From Melioribacteraceae bacterium (GTDB taxonomy: Bacteria > Bacteroidota > Ignavibacteria > Ignavibacteriales > Melioribacteraceae): a stretch of DNA of 64,000 nucleotides. The position numbers and the translations under genes were made by a program. The stretch covers positions 1-64,000 of the forward strand of contig JAIPBD010000002.1 in NCBI GenBank assembly GCA_021739765.1. The letters run 5' to 3'. The notes below the pieces were generated by a model that saw only the letters and a list, made by a program, of their open reading frames with translations, searched no databases and had not been told where the DNA came from. How positions within the stretch are numbered: the stretch's first letter is position 1; the number at the start of each line of letters is the position of its first letter. This document shows, piece by piece, positions 20,919 through 42,965 of this stretch.

Positions 20919-22418
20919 ATGATGGACTTAGAATCATATTTTTCCGAATATAGAAATAATATTATTGGTATCAATAAACATTTTCGCTCCCCGTACGGTG
21001 ATAAAAAAATAATTTATGCCGATTGGGTTGCAAGCGGAAGATTATACAAACCGATCGAGAACTCACTTCTCGAAGACTTTGGACCTTATGTTGGAAATAC
21101 TCACACCGAAACGAGTATAACCGGAACGACAATGACAAACGCTTACCACAAATCACATGAAATTATTAAAAATCATGTCAATGCCGGTCCGGACGATGTA
21201 ATTATCACTGCAGGATTTGGGATGACAACTGTAGTGAATAAATTCCAGCGAATTCTCGGTTTAAGAATCTGCGAACAATTTCGTGACCGAATTCATTTAG
21301 ATACAAATGAAAAACCGGTAGTTTTTTTGACTCACATGGAGCACCATTCAAATCAAACTTCGTGGTTGGAAACTTTAGCCGATGTAGTCGTGATCGAACC
21401 AGACGATATGGGATTAGTTGATCCGGAAAAATTGATTCCTTTATTGGAAAAGTATAAAAACAGAATTGTTAAAATTGGCTCGTTTACCGCAGCTTCAAAT
21501 GTAACCGGAATCAGCCCGGATTACAGACGGTTAGCTAAAATAATGCATGATTTTGGGGGATTGTGTTTTATCGATTTTGCAGCTGCCGCTCCCTATGTTA
21601 ATATTGATATGCATCCGGAAAATTCAGAAGAAAAATTGGATGCGATTTATTTTAGTCCACATAAATTTTTGGGTGGACCGGGCGGATCGGGTGTTTTGGT
21701 GTTTGATAAAAAATTATATAAAAGAACTGTTCCGGATCATCCCGGTGGAGGAACGGTTGATTGGACGAACCCCTGGGGCGAATATAAATTCGTAAGTTCA
21801 ATCGAAGCCCGAGAAGACGGGGGCACTCCCGGATTTTTGCAATCAATAAAAGCAGCCTTAGCAATTCGACTTAAGGAAGAAATGGGCGTTTCGAACATCT
21901 TAAAACGAGAAGAAGAATTACTTGAAATTGCACTTCCGGCTTTAAGATCAATCTCTAAAATCCACATCTTAGCAAATGAAATGGATAGCAGACTGGGTAT
22001 TCTTTCTTTTTATGTGGAAGATATTCATTATAATCTAATAGTTAAATTATTGAATGATAAGTTCGGGATTCAAGTTCGTGGCGGCTGTTCATGCGCCGGT
22101 ACATACGGGCATTATCTGCTTCATGTCGATCCGACCAGATCTAAAACCATTACCGATAAAATCAATAAAGGCGATCTTTCAGAAAAACCCGGATGGATTC
22201 GACTATCATTGCATCCAACTATGACAAACGAAGAATTGAAATATATTCTTAACGCGATTGAAGAAGTCTCCGAAATTGCTTCGGTATGGGAACAAGATTA
22301 TACATATTCATCAAAGACAAATGAATACTATCATAAATCCGGCTATGATTCGAATGTGGAAATCGATGAATTGTTTACCTCATTTCAAAAGGAAATTGGA
22401 GAAAAATTAACGATTTAA
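20919..22418 (+). CDS. Class V aminotransferase, cysteine-desulfurase-like
   Basis: A 499-residue PLP enzyme of aminotransferase class V. The PLP lysine is in SPHKFLGGPGGSGVLVF, preceded by the cofactor-binding aspartate in FIDFAAAAPY. A loop with VRGGCSCAGTYGH near residue 390 resembles the cysteine-bearing active-site loop of cysteine desulfurases. At about 500 residues it exceeds SufS/IscS (about 400), with extra sequence at the C-terminus. It may be a desulfurase or a related lyase; no suf or isc genes are adjacent. It ends 60 bases before the trp leader peptide on the same strand with no terminator visible in between. Confidence 0.75.
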   Translation: MMDLESYFSEYRNNIIGINKHFRSPYGDKKIIYADWVASGRLYKPIENSLLEDFGPYVGNTHTETSITGTTMTNAYHKSHEIIKNHVNAGPDDVIITAGFGMTTVVNKFQRILGLRICEQFRDRIHLDTNEKPVVFLTHMEHHSNQTSWLETLADVVVIEPDDMGLVDPEKLIPLLEKYKNRIVKIGSFTAASNVTGISPDYRRLAKIMHDFGGLCFIDFAAAAPYVNIDMHPENSEEKLDAIYFSPHKFLGGPGGSGVLVFDKKLYKRTVPDHPGGGTVDWTNPWGEYKFVSSIEAREDGGTPGFLQSIKAALAIRLKEEMGVSNILKREEELLEIALPALRSISKIHILANEMDSRLGILSFYVEDIHYNLIVKLLNDKFGIQVRGGCSCAGTYGHYLLHVDPTRSKTITDKINKGDLSEKPGWIRLSLHPTMTNEELKYILNAIEEVSEIASVWEQDYTYSSKTNEYYHKSGYDSNVEIDELFTSFQKEIGEKLTI

Positions 22419-22438
22419 CGTATTTTCATTTTATTATC

Positions 22439-22470
22439 TTGACATTATAATTTTATTTTAGATATTTTCG
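22439..22470 (+). promoter_or_regulatory. Candidate promoter of the trp leader and operon
   Basis: TTGACA (22439-22444) is followed after TTG plus 21 bases by TATTTTCG (22463-22470), one base from the Bacteroidota -7 box TAnnTTTG. If used, transcription would start only a few bases before the leader ATG at 22479. Start-site mapping would decide. Confidence 0.4.
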
Positions 22471-22478
22471 CATCAGTT

Positions 22479-22556
22479 ATGAAATCAAATACAACATACG
22501 GCAAATTTTATTTCTTTTTCTGGTGGTGGTTTACCATTACATTCGGACAAGAGTGA
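22479..22556 (+). CDS. trpL: Aromatic-rich trp operon leader peptide
   Basis: A 25-codon ORF (ATG 22479, TGA 22554-22556). After MKSNT it reads TYGKFYFFFWWWFTITFGQE. Three consecutive TGG codons at 22521-22529 sit inside a run of Tyr and Phe codons: two Tyr, six Phe and three Trp in 25 residues. Trp-codon clusters directly before a terminator and trpE are the hallmark of transcription attenuation by a translated leader. The peptide itself is not expected to act. No clear Shine-Dalgarno precedes the ATG. Confidence 0.85.
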   Translation: MKSNTTYGKFYFFFWWWFTITFGQE

Positions 22557-22622
22557 ATTAAGCTGTAGGAAAATAAATAATTAAAAGACCCTTCGCAGTA
22601 AAACACTCCGAAGGGTTTTTTT
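22542..22622 (+). promoter_or_regulatory. trp attenuator: antiterminator and terminator
   Basis: Terminator: ACCCTTCG (22588-22595) pairs with CGAAGGGT (22609-22616), followed by T to 22622. Competing antiterminator: TTCG (22542-22545) plus GAGTG (22551-22555) can pair with CACTCCGAA (22604-22612), with a 5-base bulge, taking away the 3' arm of the terminator. The upstream strand of the antiterminator lies inside the last codons of the leader ORF. A ribosome stalled on the Trp codons (22521-22529) leaves it free, so transcription continues. A ribosome that reaches the stop covers it, so transcription terminates. The pairing is read by eye; the logic follows the known E. coli trp mechanism. 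Confidence 0.75.
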
Positions 22623-22641
22623 ATATATAAATGGATTTTTA

Positions 22642-24102
22642 ATGACATTTGAAGAATTTCAAAATTTAGCAAAAAGTTACAAACAAGTCCCGGTTTTCAA
22701 AACATTGCCGGCGGATCTTATCACACCCGTTTCGGCTTTTCTCAATATCCGGAAATCCGGTAACAACCCGTTTCTTTTTGAGTCGGTTGAAGGAATCGGA
22801 AATTTTGCTAGATTTTCCTTTTTGAGTAAAAATCCTGCTAAGACATTCAAAAATCACGGAAAAATAATTACAGTAAATGAAAATGGTTCTGAATATTCAT
22901 TTGAGGGAGATTTTTTCGAATTTATTAAAAATGAGAAGGAAAAATTTAATCTCGCTCCGATTAAAGAGTTACCCGATTTAACCGGTGGAATGGTTGGATT
23001 TATAAGCTATGAGAATATCTCTTTAGTGGAGGATTCGATCAGTTTCCGGCAAAAAAGTGAGCTTGGAATTCCGGACGGATATTTTGGATTATACGAATCT
23101 ATCGTTGTGTTCGACCACTTTACCCATCAGATCATCATTATTAAAAATGTCACCATCGACAGCGAGCCATCTCTCGAATCTCAATACGAATCGGCGCTGG
23201 AGGAAATCGGTAGAATGCAATCCGACATCTTTAGCAATCAAGCAGTCACTGAATCATTTAGATTAACTGATGATATTAGAACTAATATTGATGAGAATTT
23301 TACAGAAATAATTGAATCTTGTAAGAAGAATATATTTGAAGGCGATGTTTTTCAAATTGTTTATTCAAAACAATTTTCAACATCGTATGAAGGAGACGTT
23401 TTTAATATTTACCGTTCACTCAGAATTATTAATCCTTCGCCATATATGTATTTTTTAGATTTTGAGAAGGATTTTCAAATAATCGGAACTTCACCCGAAG
23501 ATTTGTTACAAGTTCACGGAAAACGTGCCACCATTCTCCCGATTGCCGGAACCAGAAAAAGAGGAAATACTCCTGAGAAAGATTTGGAGCTTGAGAATGA
23601 ATTATTAAACGACCCAAAAGAAATTGCCGAACATACAATGTTGGTTGATCTGGCGAGAAATGATCTTGGCAGAGTGTGTGACTTTGAATCAATAAAAATT
23701 ACCGAAGACAAAAGAATTAGTAAGTTTTCTCATGTAATGCATATTGTTTCAAGAGTTGAGGGAAATTTAAAAAATGATAAAGATTGCATTGATGCTCTTC
23801 GCGCAAGTTTCCCCGCTGGAACAGTTACCGGAGCACCAAAAATTCGAGCGATTCAACTTTTAGAGGAATATGAAAAAACAAGAAGAAATATTTATGCCGG
23901 CGCGATTGGCTATATTGATTTTCATGGAAACCTCGATCTTTGTATCGCGATAAGGACACTTTTTACGAAGGCCGATAAAATTTATTGGCAAGCAGGAGCC
24001 GGAATTGTTGCCGATAGTAAACCAGAATTAGAAGCAAAAGAGATTCAAAATAAGGCCGCTGTTCTTATAAACGCGTTGAGATTTGCAGAGGAATTAGGAT
24101 GA
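22642..24102 (+). CDS. trpE: Anthranilate synthase component I
   Basis: A 486-residue chorismate-utilising enzyme that turns chorismate and ammonia (from TrpG) into anthranilate, the first committed step to tryptophan. The N-terminal [18 protein letters not shown] corresponds to the tryptophan-binding feedback site. The catalytic half has [59 protein letters not shown] and [13 protein letters not shown]. It is the first structural gene after the attenuator and overlaps trpG by four bases. Confidence 0.95.
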
Positions 24103-24665
24103 AAATATTAGTTATTGATAATTATGATTCGTTTACTTACAACTTGGTGCAGTTGATAGGTTTTTTTACGCACGACATCATCGTGAAAAGAAATGACAAA
24201 ATATCTATCGACGAAATTCAAAAACTGAACCCGGATAAAATAGTTATCTCACCAGGACCCGGTAAACCGGAAGATTCTAAAATTTCGCTGAATGTAATAA
24301 GTGAACTTGGTGATTCGATTCCCGTATTAGGGGTTTGTTTAGGACACCAGGGAATTGGCCACATTTTCGGCGCTAGGATAACAAATTCCCCAACATTAAT
24401 GCATGGGAAATCTTCCCGGGTAAAACATGACGGGAAAGGGATCTATAAAAACATCCCCCAAAATTTTGAAGCCGGAAGATACCATTCATTAATTATCGAT
24501 TCTTCAACACTTCCTGATGAATTGGAAATCACCTCAACTTCCGATGAGGATGTAATTATGGGAGTCAGACATAAACAACTTCCGATTGAAGGAATTCAAT
24601 TTCACCCCGAGTCGGTTCTAACACCATTGGGTAATAAATTAATAAATAACTGGATGAATTTATAA
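24099..24665 (+). CDS. trpG: Anthranilate synthase component II (glutamine amidotransferase)
   Basis: A 188-residue class I glutamine amidotransferase that supplies ammonia to TrpE. The catalytic triad is visible: Cys80 in GVCLGHQGIG, and His169 and Glu171 in FHPES. The N-terminal LVIDNYDSFTYNLVQ is typical. It is a separate gene, not fused to trpD as in enterics. Starts overlap: ATGA with trpE upstream, and trpD begins on the last base of its stop codon. Confidence 0.95.
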   Translation: MKILVIDNYDSFTYNLVQLIGFFTHDIIVKRNDKISIDEIQKLNPDKIVISPGPGKPEDSKISLNVISELGDSIPVLGVCLGHQGIGHIFGARITNSPTLMHGKSSRVKHDGKGIYKNIPQNFEAGRYHSLIIDSSTLPDELEITSTSDEDVIMGVRHKQLPIEGIQFHPESVLTPLGNKLINNWMNL

Positions 24666-25675
24666 TGCTTGAATTAATACAAAAAGTGATTGAGAGAGAA
24701 AATCTTTCTCTTTACGAAGCCCATTTTGCCATGAGCCAAATAATGACCGGGGAAATTAACAATTCACAGATCGCGGCTTTTCTGACGGCAATAGCAGCGA
24801 AAGGTGAAACCGCTGAAGAGGTAGCCGGATTTATTAAAGCGATGCGAGACCGATCTCAAAAAGTTCATTCCAAAGATAATAACGCAATTGATGTTTGTGG
24901 AACAGGCGGTGATTCTTCGGGTACTTTTAATATTTCAACCGCGGTTGCGTTTGTTGTAGCAGGAGCGGGAGTTACAGTTGCTAAACATGGAAATAGATCG
25001 ATAACAAGTAAATCGGGCAGTGCAGATGTTCTTAAATCCTTAGCTGTTAACATCGATGTTTCCCGCGATCAAAACGAAGCTATCTTAAATGAAATTGGAA
25101 TAACTTTTATGTTTGCTCCATTATATCACCCTGCTATGGTTTATGCGGTCCCCGTGCGAAGAGAGCTGGGCTTTCGTACGGTATTTAATATTCTTGGACC
25201 GCTGACAAATCCCGCATCGGTTAAAAAACAAATAGTGGGAACTTTTAATAATCGGACTGCTAAACTAATGGCGGAGGCCGCAAAATTTTTGGGCTATGAA
25301 TCTATAAAATTTGTTTGCACCGAAGACAAATATGATGAATTAACGCTAACATCGAACTCGAAAATAATAACTGTTAGCGGCGATCAATTAGAAGAATCTG
25401 AGTTTATTCCTGTTACTTATGGTTTCAAAAACATTCAAATTGGTGAAATTAAAGGTGGAGCTGCTGAGGAAAACGCCAATATTATTCTTTCAATTATAAG
25501 GGATAACAAAGATTCCGCAGCCAAAGAAGTTGTTTTGGCTAATGCATCTTTAGCACTTCAAGTTGCGGGAGTATCGGATGATTTGAATGTGTGCAAAGCA
25601 ATCGCGCTTGAAAGTATCGCCGGAGGAAATGCCCTCAAAAAATTAAATCAGCTAGTTGATAGGACTAATTCATAA
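24665..25675 (+). CDS. trpD: Anthranilate phosphoribosyltransferase
   Basis: A 336-residue enzyme that transfers phosphoribose from PRPP to anthranilate. Conserved elements are the PRPP loop VCGTGGDSSGTFNISTAVAFV, KHGNRSITSKSGSADVL, and the magnesium and anthranilate region FNILGPLTNPA. Full length, with one base shared with trpG and one with trpC, so the operon is tightly coupled. Confidence 0.95.
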   Translation: MLELIQKVIERENLSLYEAHFAMSQIMTGEINNSQIAAFLTAIAAKGETAEEVAGFIKAMRDRSQKVHSKDNNAIDVCGTGGDSSGTFNISTAVAFVVAGAGVTVAKHGNRSITSKSGSADVLKSLAVNIDVSRDQNEAILNEIGITFMFAPLYHPAMVYAVPVRRELGFRTVFNILGPLTNPASVKKQIVGTFNNRTAKLMAEAAKFLGYESIKFVCTEDKYDELTLTSNSKIITVSGDQLEESEFIPVTYGFKNIQIGEIKGGAAEENANIILSIIRDNKDSAAKEVVLANASLALQVAGVSDDLNVCKAIALESIAGGNALKKLNQLVDRTNS

Positions 25676-26469
25676 TGCAAATTCTTGATGAAATAATTGA
25701 AGTAAAAAGGGAGGAAATCAAATTACTTCACCGCGATTATTCTTACTCAAGATTTCAGGATTCGCGCTTTTTTGAAGTGGAAAAATTAAGTCTTTTCGAT
25801 TCATTAAAATCAGAATCTGAAATAACCGTAATTGCCGAGATCAAGAAAGCAAGCCCGTCAAAAGGTGTTATTCGCGAGGATTTTAATCATATCAAAATAG
25901 CTGAAGAATATATGAAAGCCGGAGCAAATGCGATTTCGGTTCTTACGGATGCAAAATTTTTTCTAGGCGACATAAACTATTTGAAAGAGATTGCCCTAAT
26001 TAAAGAATGTCCGATTCTACGAAAAGATTTTATCCTCGACGAATTTCAAATTTATGAAGCAAAATCAAACGGAGCTGACGCGGTTTTATTAATCTGCGAA
26101 TGTTTGAGCCACAACCAAATAACCGAACTATCACAATGTGCACAAGAAACCGGACTCGAAGTTTTACTTGAATTACATAGTTCAGAACAAATTTTTAAGA
26201 TAGACTTTAACTTGAATAAAATTATCGGGATCAACAACCGAGATTTAACAAATTTTGTAACCTCCCTTGAGACCACAGAGATTATTAAAAAATTAATTCC
26301 CGCCAAGAATTTGATCGTATCTGAAAGTGGAATTAACGATCGAAAAGATATTGATTTTTTGTTGAATCTTGGCATCAACTCAGTATTAGTCGGCGAATTT
26401 TTTATGAAGGAAAAATCCATTTACGATGGATTAAAATTGTTTAAAGACTGGTGCCAAATTGAAAGTTAA
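25675..26469 (+). CDS. trpC: Indole-3-glycerol-phosphate synthase
   Basis: A 264-residue (beta-alpha)8 barrel that closes the indole ring, releasing CO2. Family motifs are VIAEIKKASPSKGVI (catalytic Lys), CPILRKDFILDEFQIYEAKSNGADAVLLI, GINNRDL and SESGI. It is a stand-alone TrpC, not fused to TrpF. The 3' end overlaps the TTG start of trpF by 11 bases. Confidence 0.95.
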   Translation: MQILDEIIEVKREEIKLLHRDYSYSRFQDSRFFEVEKLSLFDSLKSESEITVIAEIKKASPSKGVIREDFNHIKIAEEYMKAGANAISVLTDAKFFLGDINYLKEIALIKECPILRKDFILDEFQIYEAKSNGADAVLLICECLSHNQITELSQCAQETGLEVLLELHSSEQIFKIDFNLNKIIGINNRDLTNFVTSLETTEIIKKLIPAKNLIVSESGINDRKDIDFLLNLGINSVLVGEFFMKEKSIYDGLKLFKDWCQIES

Positions 26470-27076
26470 AATCTGCGGTATCACAAATATCGAAGATGCG
26501 CTTTATTGTGCAAATTTAGGCGCGGATGCACTAGGGTTTATTTTTTATAAAAAAAGCCCAAGATTCATCAAGCCAAAAACCGTAAGCGAAATTATAAACG
26601 AGTTACCTCCGTTTATTTCAACTGTAGGGGTTTTTGTAAATGAAAACATAAGTGTAGTAAATGAAATTTCGAATAAACTTCAACTATCTTATGTGCAAAT
26701 TCATGGTGATGAATCACCGGTTTACTTAAATCAAATTAATGTTCCGAGCATTAAAGCATTCCGAATATCCAAGGATTTCGATTTTGATAGTATTTATAAT
26801 TATAATTCTAAATACTATTTGCTTGACGCGTTTAAACCAACTGAATATGGTGGCACCGGAACAACCTTTAATTGGAGAAATATTCCTTCCGGTATTTTAG
26901 CGAAAACTATTCTCGCGGGTGGAATTTCATCAGACAATTTGGAAATAATAATGAGTGAAATAAAACCGGCAGCAATTGATGTTTCTTCAAATCTTGAAAA
27001 AAGTCCCGGTATTAAAGATCATAAAAAAATAAGTGAATTTTTTAAAACAATAAATAAATTGGAAAACAGATGCTAG
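26459..27076 (+). CDS. trpF: Phosphoribosylanthranilate isomerase
   Basis: A 205-residue barrel that isomerises phosphoribosylanthranilate. It has the catalytic Cys in VKICGIT at the N-terminus, ADALGFIFYKKSPRFI, LLDAFKPTEYGGTGTTFNW with the catalytic Asp, and a phosphate-binding ILAGGISSDN. The start is TTG at 26459: it directly precedes KVKICGIT and overlaps trpC. It overlaps the DAHP synthase gene by 7 bases (ATGCTAG). Confidence 0.92.
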   Translation: MKVKICGITNIEDALYCANLGADALGFIFYKKSPRFIKPKTVSEIINELPPFISTVGVFVNENISVVNEISNKLQLSYVQIHGDESPVYLNQINVPSIKAFRISKDFDFDSIYNYNSKYYLLDAFKPTEYGGTGTTFNWRNIPSGILAKTILAGGISSDNLEIIMSEIKPAAIDVSSNLEKSPGIKDHKKISEFFKTINKLENRC

Positions 27077-28089
27077 TAGTTATGAATCCAAACGCTCCGA
27101 AGGAGCATATCGAACGGGTAAGAGAAAAAATACTAAAATTAGATTGCAAACCTCACGAAATCTTTGGCAAGGATAATATTGCCATCGCGGTTTTAGGAAA
27201 TACTAAAGATATCGATAAAGAAGATTTGTCAATTCTTCCTTCCGTACAACACGTTTTACGTGTGTCAAAAAAATATAAACTAGTGAGCAGAATGATGAAA
27301 AATGAAGACACGGTGCTCGATCTCAATGGAACTACAATTGGTGGAAAGGATTTGTTCATCGTGGCAGGACCTTGTTCTGTGGAAGAGAGGGAAAGTGTAT
27401 TAGAAACTGCCGGGCAACTAAACGAACTCGGTGTTAAATTTTTTAGAGCCGGGGCTTACAAACCACGCTCAAGTCCATATGCTTTTCAAGGTTTGAAACT
27501 TAAAGGTCTTCAATATTTAGATGATGTAAAAAAAGAGTTCGGTATGCAAATTGTAACTGAAGTATTAAATCCTCGAACCATTAATGAAGTGGCGGAAGTT
27601 GCGGATATACTTCAAATTGGCGCAAGAAATATGCAAAACTTTACACTTCTGGAAGAGGCCGGTGCAACCGGAAAGCCGATTCTTTTAAAAAGAGGAATGT
27701 CGGCAACCGTCGAAGATTTGTTGCTCAGTGCCGAATATATTGCCGCGCAGAATAATAGTAAAATTATTTTATGTGAAAGAGGTATCCGAACCTTTGAAAA
27801 AGCGACTCGTAATACATTAGATTTGAACGCTATTCCGGTAGTTAAAAAACACTCACATTTACCGATTGTTGTTGATCCTTCTCACGGTATCGGAATTGCC
27901 GACAAAGTCCCGGCAATGGCGCTCGCTTCAGTTGCTGCCGGAGCGGATGGTTTGATGCTCGAAGTTCATCACAGTCCCGAAGATGCTTGGTCTGATGGAT
28001 TTCAAACGCTGAATATGGCTGATTTTAAATCGCTGCTGGATAAAGTAAAACAACTTGCACCAATTGTTGGAAAGGAATTGACTATATGA
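27070..28089 (+). CDS. aroF: DAHP synthase inside the trp operon
   Basis: A 339-residue 3-deoxy-7-phosphoheptulonate synthase of the AroA-I-beta type (as in Thermotoga and Bacillus): an N-terminal ferredoxin-like regulatory domain (about 1-75) and a (beta-alpha)8 barrel with [59 protein letters not shown] and VVDPSHGIG. It joins PEP and erythrose-4-phosphate, the entry step for Trp, Phe and Tyr. The N-terminal domain is the part that binds aromatic feedback inhibitors in relatives. It is coupled by overlaps to trpF and trpB, so it is under the same attenuator. Confidence 0.92.
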
Positions 28090-29282
28090 TTGCTGATAAA
28101 TACAGTATGCCCGATTCGGATGGGAAATTTGGCATCTTCGGCGGAAAATTTGTTCCGGAAACTTTGATTGCGGCTTTAACCGAATTGGAAAAAAATTACA
28201 ATGAAGTAAAAGCTGAACCCGGTTTCCTGAGCGAACTGGAGGAATTGCAAACTAATTATAACGGAAGACCCACACCTCTGACTTACGCAAATAGATTGAC
28301 CGAACATTTTGGGAAAGCGGAAATATTTCTAAAGCGCGAAGATTTGAACCATACAGGGGCACATAAACTTAATAATGCCTTAGGTCAAATTTTACTGGCC
28401 CGGAAAATAGGTAAAAAAAGGATTATTGCGGAAACGGGTGCCGGTCAGCATGGAGTTGCTACTGCCACTGTCTGCGCAAAATTTGGAATGGAATGTATCG
28501 TTTATATGGGCTCCAAAGATGTTGAAAGACAAAGTTTAAATGTATTTAGAATGGAAATGCTCGGAGCAAAAGTAATTCCGGTAGAGTCAGGAAGTAAAAC
28601 CTTAAAGGATGCCACAAACGAAGCAATCAGAGATTGGGTTACCAATGTGTCCGACACCCATTACATAATTGGTTCAGTTGTCGGACCACATCCATATCCG
28701 ATGATGGTGAGGGATTTTCAGTCCATTATCGGCTCGGAAACAAAACAACAGTTGCAGCGGGTTCGGGGTAAAGGGCCCGATCATATAATCGCCTGTGTTG
28801 GAGGTGGTTCAAACGCAATCGGTATATTTTATCCATTCATTAATCATAATACAAAAATGTATGGAATTGAAGCGGGTGGATTTGGGATTGATACCGATAA
28901 ACATTGTGCCACTTTAACTCTTGGGAGCCCCGGGGTATTTCAAGGAATGAAAACTTATTTATTGCAGGATGAGTCGGGTCAAATAAGCGAAGTTCATTCG
29001 ATTTCTGCAGGATTAGATTATCCGGGTGTAGGACCCGAACACAGTTATTTAAAGGATACCAATCGTATTATTTACGACTCCATCACAGACGCTGAAGCAC
29101 TTGAAGGAATCAAACTACTGTCTGAAAAGGAAGGAATAATACCGGCATTGGAAACAGCACATGCTGTAGCCTATTTAAACAAATTGATGCCAAATACCAA
29201 TGAAGGCGAAATTGTAGTTGTAAATATTAGTGGAAGAGGCGACAAGGATCTTAATACAATTATTGCAAACCTTAAGAGATAA
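28086..29282 (+). CDS. trpB: Tryptophan synthase beta subunit
   Basis: A 398-residue PLP enzyme that condenses indole with serine. The PLP Lys is in [13 protein letters not shown]. Other motifs are [20 protein letters not shown], the phosphate-binding GGGSNAIG, and [15 protein letters not shown]. Length and motifs are of the standard TrpB1 type that forms the alpha2-beta2 complex with TrpA. Its ATG overlaps the DAHP synthase stop by ATGA, and trpA follows after three bases. Confidence 0.95.
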
Positions 29283-29285
29283 ATA

Positions 29286-30062
29286 ATGTCAAAAATTCAT
29301 AATTATATTGATGCGATAAATAAAGAAAATAGAAAAGCATTAAATATTTTTTTAACCGCCGGATTTCCGGAGAAGGAAAATTTCACTGAACTTGCTTGTT
29401 CTGTTTTGGACGCCGGTGCTGATATACTCGAAATCGGTGTGCCCTTCAGTGATCCACTCGCTGATGGACCTATCATCCAAAAATCTTCAAAAGCCGCTTT
29501 AGATAACCACATCACGTTAAATGATTCTTTGAGATACGTGTCGGAAATACGTGAACAACGAGATAATCCTTTAATTTTAATGGGTTATGCAAACCCGATA
29601 ATTAAATATGGATTATCGAAGTTTTTAGCGGATGCGGAATCTGCCGGTGTTAATGGATTAATAATTCCCGATGTTCCTCTCGAAGAAAATGATAATTTTT
29701 TCAATGAACTAAATCCGGAAATTGATACGATCCTCTTAACAACTCCCACTTCAAGTGATGAAAGAATCAAAACTATTGACGAAAAAAGTAGCGGGTTTGT
29801 TTACTGTGTGAGTGTTACGGGTACAACCGGAACTCGAGAGGTTTTTGATGAAGAGATCAAAAAGAATCTTATTCGCACAAAATCGTTAGTCGCAAAGAAT
29901 AAATTGTTGGTGGGGTTTGGGATATCAAAACCACAGAACGTTTCCGATCTTTATGATACGGCAGACGGATTTATTGTTGGGAGCGCTGTTATCAAATATC
30001 TGTTGGATAATAATAAAAAATCAGCCTTAGATTTAGTGCGATCCTTGCGAAACGTCTGTTAA
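29286..30062 (+). CDS. trpA: Tryptophan synthase alpha subunit
   Basis: A 258-residue barrel that cleaves indole-3-glycerol phosphate to indole, channelled to TrpB. The catalytic Glu and Asp are in LEIGVPFSDPLADGPIIQ. Also visible are GLIIPDVPLEE, CVSVTGTTGTRE, VGFGISKPQNV and VGSAVIKY. It is the last gene of the trp operon. No terminator hairpin is obvious in the 145 bases before the cyclophilin gene, which may receive readthrough. Confidence 0.95.
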   Translation: MSKIHNYIDAINKENRKALNIFLTAGFPEKENFTELACSVLDAGADILEIGVPFSDPLADGPIIQKSSKAALDNHITLNDSLRYVSEIREQRDNPLILMGYANPIIKYGLSKFLADAESAGVNGLIIPDVPLEENDNFFNELNPEIDTILLTTPTSSDERIKTIDEKSSGFVYCVSVTGTTGTREVFDEEIKKNLIRTKSLVAKNKLLVGFGISKPQNVSDLYDTADGFIVGSAVIKYLLDNNKKSALDLVRSLRNVC

Positions 30063-42894: not shown

Positions 42895-42965
42895 CTGGCC
42901 GAGGAGGATTTGAACCCCCACTGACGGGACCAAAACCCGATGTACTACCATTATACTATCGGCCA
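42895..42965 (-). tRNA. tRNA-Gln (anticodon TTG)
   Basis: On the minus strand a full cloverleaf folds. The acceptor TGGCCGA pairs with TCGGCCA and the discriminator is G. The D arm is short (GTA/TAC). The anticodon stem CGGG/CCCG carries loop TTTTGGT, giving anticodon TTG. The T arm is GGGGG/CCTCC with loop TTCAAAT. The lowest anticodon-stem position is a T-T mismatch. No CCA is encoded. It sits between rplR (5 bases away) and rpsE, inside the spc ribosomal operon and on the same strand, so it must be cut out of the mRNA. Confidence 0.93.

Follow-up and report, generated by a model that had tools for sequence, protein, structure and literature searches.

Upstream of trpE in the window, by which we mean the whole stretch of 64,000 nucleotides (nts) that was analyzed, lies what is probably an attenuator through which the ribosome controls transcription of the trp operon. 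Its layout would be 2:4, in which the antiterminator strand (segment 2) takes the loop and the 3′ arm of the intrinsic terminator (segment 4). Judged from sequence, it is a trp attenuator in the broad sense of the term and a conserved variant of its order, lacking the 2:3 pairing that characterizes E. coli-type attenuators.

Leader ORF, terminator and operon in the window

The features of the locus are as follows.

22439-22470, + strand: likely promoter, TTGACA (22439-22444) and TATTTTCG (22463-22470), 8 nts upstream of the leader ATG; assigned by motif, with the transcript start inferred
22479-22556, + strand: leader peptide ORF MKSNTTYGKFYFFFWWWFTITFGQE*, 25 codons with an ATG start; from ORF reading
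22497-22502, + strand: segment 1, UACGGC, which pairs with GCUGUA to form a protector hairpin around the Trp codons; from folding, with 1:2 covariation in the order
22521-22529, + strand: three Trp codons (WWW), the sensing site; from ORF reading
22542-22555, + strand: segment 2, the antiterminator strand, UUCGGA (22542-22547) and GUG (22553-22555); from folding
22554-22556, + strand: stop codon of the leader ORF; from ORF reading
22562-22567, + strand: GCUGUA, the partner of segment 1; from folding
22583-22622, + strand: intrinsic terminator (segments 3 and 4 and the U-tract); from folding and shuffles
22604-22612, + strand: segment 4 target, the loop end and upper 3′ arm, CACUCCGAA; from folding of free RNA and covariation in relatives
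22642-30062, + strand: controlled operon, trpE, trpG, trpD, trpC, trpF, DAHP synthase, trpB and trpA; from NCBIfam models

The preliminary description had placed a 25-codon ORF with three consecutive Trp codons ahead of a terminator and trpE, and its coordinates proved correct. Across both strands of the 64 kb, no second ATG-started ORF of 10-45 codons contains WWW. The terminator is built from a 5′ arm AAAAGACCCTTCG (22583-22595) and a 3′ arm CGAAGGG (22609-22615), followed by seven T up to 22622, and the fold energy of 22536-22619 (-21.4 kcal/mol) was equalled by none of 200 shuffles. A simple terminator scan called no terminator at this locus, probably because of the mismatch within the stem. 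Two features of ribosome-mediated amino-acid attenuators in the broad sense are therefore present: a short ORF rich in codons for the product of the operon it precedes, and an intrinsic terminator between this ORF and the first gene.

The first gene, trpE, starts at 22642, and its product scored 507.1 bits against TIGR00564, slightly below the NCBIfam cut-off of 517.7, while each of the other seven genes exceeded the cut-off of at least one fitting NCBIfam model. Between trpF and trpB the operon includes the gene for DAHP synthase (27070-28089), and upstream of WWW the leader peptide has a Tyr codon and several Phe codons; because of these two features, the switch may also respond when aromatic amino acids in general run short. 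Preceding the leader, the gene at 20919-22418 resembles SufS-type cysteine desulfurases, although its score falls well short of their cut-off (131.7 against 475.1 bits).

The Rfam family Trp_leader (RF00513) gave no match at gathering score in the window. In 22430-22660, where 30 matches had E values of at most 5, it was not among them, and the best sub-threshold match was His_leader (29.9 against 49 bits). No T-box or other Rfam riboswitch reached gathering score, and the sole Rfam match in the whole window was a tRNA (42895-42965).

Promoters of the Bacteroidota type have the consensus TTG followed by a -7 box TAnnTTTG. The -7 box of the window, TATTTTCG, has one mismatch to it and does not count among the 56 of 98 order loci (described below) where an exact promoter of this type ends 4-13 nts ahead of the first in-frame ATG; the expectation from shuffling is a -7 box within 60 nts in about 4 of 95. 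Shine-Dalgarno-like motifs (GGAG, GAGG or AGGA) upstream of the leader ATG were found in none of the 98 loci. This short distance, together with the lack of a Shine-Dalgarno-like motif, suggests that the trp leader mRNA is probably nearly leaderless. The his leaders of the same family showed a promoter box in 15 of 28 cases, and in 11 of these 15 it was located 21-28 nts before the ATG. A tRNA-Asn (gtt) gene immediately precedes the trp leader in three order loci (L040, L050 and L137), two of which (L040 and L050) lack the usual promoter box; the leader may be co-transcribed with the tRNA at these three loci.

Conservation of the leader and its pairings across the order

TrpE was present in 105 of the 165 genomes of the order (E ≤ 1e-80). 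The order is probably Ignavibacteriales, judging from its named relatives, among them one Melioribacteraceae and several Ignavibacteria metagenome genomes. After exclusion of four genomes with split or partial trpE (G151, G218, G255 and G275), 101 trpE loci with usable upstream DNA were obtained; L055-L057, repeats of three loci, were also excluded. In 98 of the 101 loci, a script detected clustered Trp codons within an ORF that has a terminator behind it, and 92 of these 98 leaders have at least three Trp codons. With two loci recognized by hand, L038 and L087 (the leader of the latter lies further upstream and was identified via its named copy L140), clustered Trp codons occur in 100 of the 101 loci, the single locus with just two separated Trp codons being L096. 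Homologues without the Trp codons or the hairpins, which the preliminary description had named as evidence against its reading, were sought in the 101 loci, and none was found except L096. Chance was considered as well and is rejected in view of this conservation. In a sample of the class outside the order, 15 of 28 loci had no leader. At L122 (family f4), a leader-like ORF without a terminator is probably due to chance.

The antiterminator had been described as 22542-22555 pairing with 22604-22612, and folding gave the same result when 22540-22613 was free: UUCGGA (22542-22547) pairs with UCCGAA (22607-22612), and GUG (22553-22555) with CAC (22604-22606). An alternative register of segment 2, as in relatives, is GAGUG (22551-22555). 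The energy of the 2:4 duplex in the window (-8.5) was equalled by 358 of 2000 shuffles and that of the 1:2 pairing by 379 of 2000, neither being significant on its own. When the entire linker was considered, the two sides of the window's terminator tied (5′ side -8.7, 3′ side -8.6). In growing-chain folding of the window, the 9 bp of 2:4 were matched by 2 of 200 shuffled linkers and its 5 steps by 31 of 200. The case for the window pairing, a sequence-based one, is weak for the window alone and rests on the comparison with relatives.

Most order loci carry an element such as CTCAGTGA, CCGGTGA, CCCAGTGA, CCAAGTGA or CTTAGTGA approximately 20-31 nts beyond the last Trp codon. The element is translated in differing frames (MTQ*, SVT* and PVN*), and in 14 of the 98 loci the antiterminator helix lies entirely 3′ of the stop codon, indicating that it is an RNA element and not a peptide motif. 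The distance from its 3′ end to the last Trp codon is nearly constant among order loci (median 29 nts, IQR 29-31, sd 3.6), whereas its position relative to the stop codon is scattered (sd 7.7).

When segment 2 was paired with the loop and 3′ arm of its own locus or of another, the energies averaged -11.43 kcal/mol for own and -8.88 kcal/mol for swapped partners over 93 distinct loci, and none of 2000 swaps was as good. The same test with 23 divergent representatives gave -11.36 and -7.91, respectively (0/5000). With the 5′ side, loop counted, the effect was small (own -4.98, swapped -4.28, 0/2000; 13/5000 for the 23 representatives), and when the loop was excluded, the 3′ arm gave 0 of 2000 swaps as good against 92 of 2000 for the 5′ arm. 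The 3′ side was stronger than the 5′ side in 95 of the 98 loci (49/49, 41/44 and 5/5 by family). The variant layout put forward in the preliminary description, with the antiterminator on the terminator loop and 3′ arm, is thus upheld by these 95 loci together with the covariation (0/2000).

These data bear on the reading in which the switch is an ordinary E. coli-type 2:3 attenuator and the match to the 3′ side a by-product of the resemblance of segment 2 to segment 3. The tie of the two sides over the whole linker of the window and the slight covariation of the 5′ side with the loop counted would fit it, but the 5′ arm pairs with segment 2 at only about -3.0 kcal/mol on average and its covariation without the loop falls far behind that of the 3′ arm, so that we consider this reading improbable. 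Across the order the antiterminator is accordingly not located on the 5′ arm of the terminator, although the window itself is weak on this point. Pairing of segment 1 with the 5′ arm (1:3), considered as the reason why segments 2 and 3 are alike, had a weak signal (10/2000 for the 93 loci, 57/2000 for f1 and 506/2000 for f2). The three exceptions favoring the 5′ side, L112, L114 and L116, all belong to f2 and are possible reversions or transitional forms; L112 is the clearest 5′-arm case within the order (-16.2 versus -6.6).

Regarding the protector hairpin, the codons of a conserved TY or TYY motif form, among the loci listed, a pairing that encloses the Trp codons; their partner is either segment 2, mainly in f2, or the sequence immediately 3′ of it, frequently in f1. 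The leader covaries with segment 2 (0/2000 for the order and 0/5000 for the 23 divergent representatives), and the 1:2 pairing can explain the retention of the TY/TYY peptide motif. The protector hairpin of E. coli-type attenuators is hence present in the order, though the window alone is non-significant. A direct pairing between segment 2 and the Trp codons was rejected, as it is absent in the order (531/2000).

A further alternative assumes no sensing of Trp at all, the terminator being constitutive or otherwise regulated and the leader ORF incidental. The long-range pairings of the window, non-significant alone, would agree with this; however, 100 of 101 loci have clusters of Trp codons whose distance to the covarying element is fixed, and no Rfam family reaches gathering score in the leader region, which makes the alternative extremely improbable. 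On sequence comparison, then, the leader, the Trp codons, the terminator, the 1:2 and 2:4 covariation and the constant distance between the Trp codons and segment 2 are established for the trp attenuator.

Folding during emergence and the proposed switch

A ribosome covers approximately 10 nts beyond the codon being decoded, and approximately 8-14 nts of RNA are held within the polymerase; these footprints were used in the folding, with a model that excludes pseudoknots. With the ribosome on the Trp codons, 2:4 was the best fold in 92 of 98 loci when the RNA had emerged up to 4 nts before the U-tract (-4), in 74 at -2 and in 16 at 0. With the ribosome at the stop codon, 3:4 was the best fold in 81 of 98 loci at -4, 89 at -2 and 97 at 0, and 2:4 was still seen in 12 of 98 at -4. 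Without a ribosome, the loci were split at -4 (53 terminator, 42 antiterminator), and the terminator was formed in 81 of 98 at -2. At least three steps with 2:4 were observed in 95 of the 98 loci versus 34% of shuffled linkers. The window behaved alike: with the ribosome on the Trp codons, 2:4 had 8 bp at -4 and 9 bp at -2; with the ribosome at the stop, the terminator had 6 and 8 bp, respectively; and at 0 the terminator was formed in both ribosome states. Mutually exclusive RNA structures chosen by ribosome position, a further feature of attenuators in the broad sense, are thus found in silico, and the window conforms at -4 and -2.

In the full-length RNA, folding favored the terminator over any other structure in 95 of 98 loci, a stalled ribosome notwithstanding. 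The earlier proposal that a stall frees the antiterminator strand and a ribosome at the stop masks it is supported by folds that follow ribosome position during emergence. Beyond the reach of the preliminary description were the 1:2 hairpin, the his control, the differing layout in other parts of the phylum and the loss of the antiterminator to the terminator at full length. Since the terminator wins there, antitermination must, according to the folding model, be a race, and the antiterminator would work only kinetically.

Another possibility is a pseudoknot in which segment 2 is bound to the loop and the lower stem still forms, so that the terminator is weakened or delayed without full strand displacement. 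This is consistent with segment 2 covering only the loop and the upper 3′ arm and leaving the lower stem free in most relatives; nevertheless, UUCGGA in the window also covers bases of the lower stem, and we regard the pseudoknot as rather unlikely, though less so than the 2:3 reading above.

Under the kinetic 2:4 reading, the stalling, masking, kinetic capture and Trp response that we infer would proceed as follows. When charged tRNA-Trp is short, the ribosome would stall on the Trp codons and leave segment 2 free to capture the terminator loop and upper 3′ arm during their emergence from RNA polymerase. Because of this 2:4 capture, no terminator hairpin would form until the U-tract has passed, and trpE would be transcribed. 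When Trp is sufficient, the ribosome would reach the stop codon and mask segment 2, allowing the terminator to form. With no ribosome, segment 1 would pair with segment 2 and the terminator would tend to form.

Control attenuators, origin of the layout and related systems

The his attenuators of the window's family were analyzed in the same manner. Searching 58 genomes of the family, hisG was present in 40, and 31 hisG loci, that of the window's genome included, were inspected. Leaders with a run of His codons precede hisG in most of them, 28 of 31 by script and L245 by hand, and these 29 were tested; at L222 and L224 the script found no his leader. Segment 2 preferred the 5′ side of the terminator in 26 of the 29 and covaried with this side only (0/2000 versus 1516/2000 for the 3′ side). 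L245, in the window's own genome (G000:C1, 2853 onward, before hisG), has a his leader MLGTHRTYHHDNNFQRKVSV and a terminator in the ordinary 5′-arm layout (5′ side -14.9, 3′ side -4.7).

For trp attenuators outside the order, 340 of 395 phylum genomes proved to have TrpE (E ≤ 1e-60), and 39 distinct upstream regions were taken from them. Of these, 30 had an ORF with clustered Trp codons and 27 were carried forward, with L273 and L284 (far-off non-ATG ORFs) and L251 omitted; L269 has no terminator, leaving 26 phylum loci. Together with three named Balneolales, one Calditrichaeota and three class loci (L029, L030 and L124), 33 non-order trp attenuators were compared. The 5′ side was stronger in 29 of the 33, the exceptions being L029, L030, L247 and L266, and only the 5′ side covaried (0/2000 versus 1051/2000 for the 3′ side). 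In the class sample outside the order, the 5′ side was preferred in 5 of 5 loci of f6 and the 3′ side in 2 of 3 of f19. A Desulfobacteria locus not among the 33 (L214) is also of the 5′ kind. The occurrence of 2:3 in the his attenuators of the family and in the non-order trp attenuators lends some plausibility to a 2:3 switch in the order too; these same two sets, however, serve as a control showing that the method detects 2:3 where it is present.

A quick tree was built from 46 TrpE rows, with even-numbered order loci above L032 left out; in it the order formed a single clade (SH-aLRT 100) with 25 rows of the 3′-side layout and 3 unclear. The minimum number of layout changes was three. A switch of layout on the stem of the order is the simplest reading and probably the right one, the count of changes giving by itself no direction. 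We lean, with moderate confidence, to the fuller account in which the trp attenuator is purely kinetic, its strand capturing the emerging loop and 3′ arm while the terminator is the equilibrium fold; in which it arose on the order's stem from a 5′-arm layout that the his attenuators of the family have kept; and in which the transcript begins only shortly before the leader ORF.

In the trpL attenuator of E. coli, the antiterminator takes the 5′ arm of the terminator (2:3). The attenuators described here have in common with it (RF00513) a leader peptide with Trp codons, a protector hairpin 1:2, a terminator 3:4 and a downstream trp operon. They differ in using 2:4 (loop and 3′ arm) in place of 2:3, and in the position of the Trp codons, which lie in the loop of 1:2 and not in the 1:2 strand as in E. 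coli. The his attenuators of the same family, in the same genomes, share the codon-run leader, the terminator and the 1:2 pairing, and differ by their 5′-arm antiterminator and by a leader ATG usually 21-28 nts from the promoter box.

The trp attenuators of Actinobacteria are described as classical, with leader peptides of two or three UGG codons, a terminator and an antiterminator (PMC1262725); they share these three elements with the present ones and, belonging to another phylum, have the layout of Proteobacteria. The trpL of Sinorhizobium meliloti, from a different phylum, shares with the present leaders an ORF at the very 5′ end of the transcript; it is reported to be leaderless (PMC7298713), and the leaders here would be near-leaderless. 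The three-hairpin attenuator of Corynebacterium glutamicum ilvBNC has its overlap at the base of the terminator and has in common with the present system an antiantiterminator, an antiterminator, a terminator and rapid switching (PMC11857589). According to a 2010 paper, Proteobacteria and Actinobacteria were until then the only groups with demonstrated leader-peptide control, to which it added a Firmicutes case (PMC2965389). A survey of leader genes by distance includes Bacteroidetes (PMC4833913), and a treatment of the his genes of this superphylum does not use the word "leader" in its main text (PMC8305728). In the literature searched, which covered subscription journals thinly, there was no trp attenuator of Bacteroidota and no 3′-arm antiterminator, weak evidence of novelty.

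The present comparison of sequences would place leader-peptide control of both trp and his in a phylum for which that literature has no such case. A textbook 5′-arm antiterminator gains a head start by pairing with the arm that is made first, whereas the target here, throughout an order, is the late arm. The classical his switch in the same family is a natural control, and with it the roles of folding order and stability in attenuation are directly testable. Finally, the finding suggests that evolution can rewire such a switch without giving up its leader peptide.
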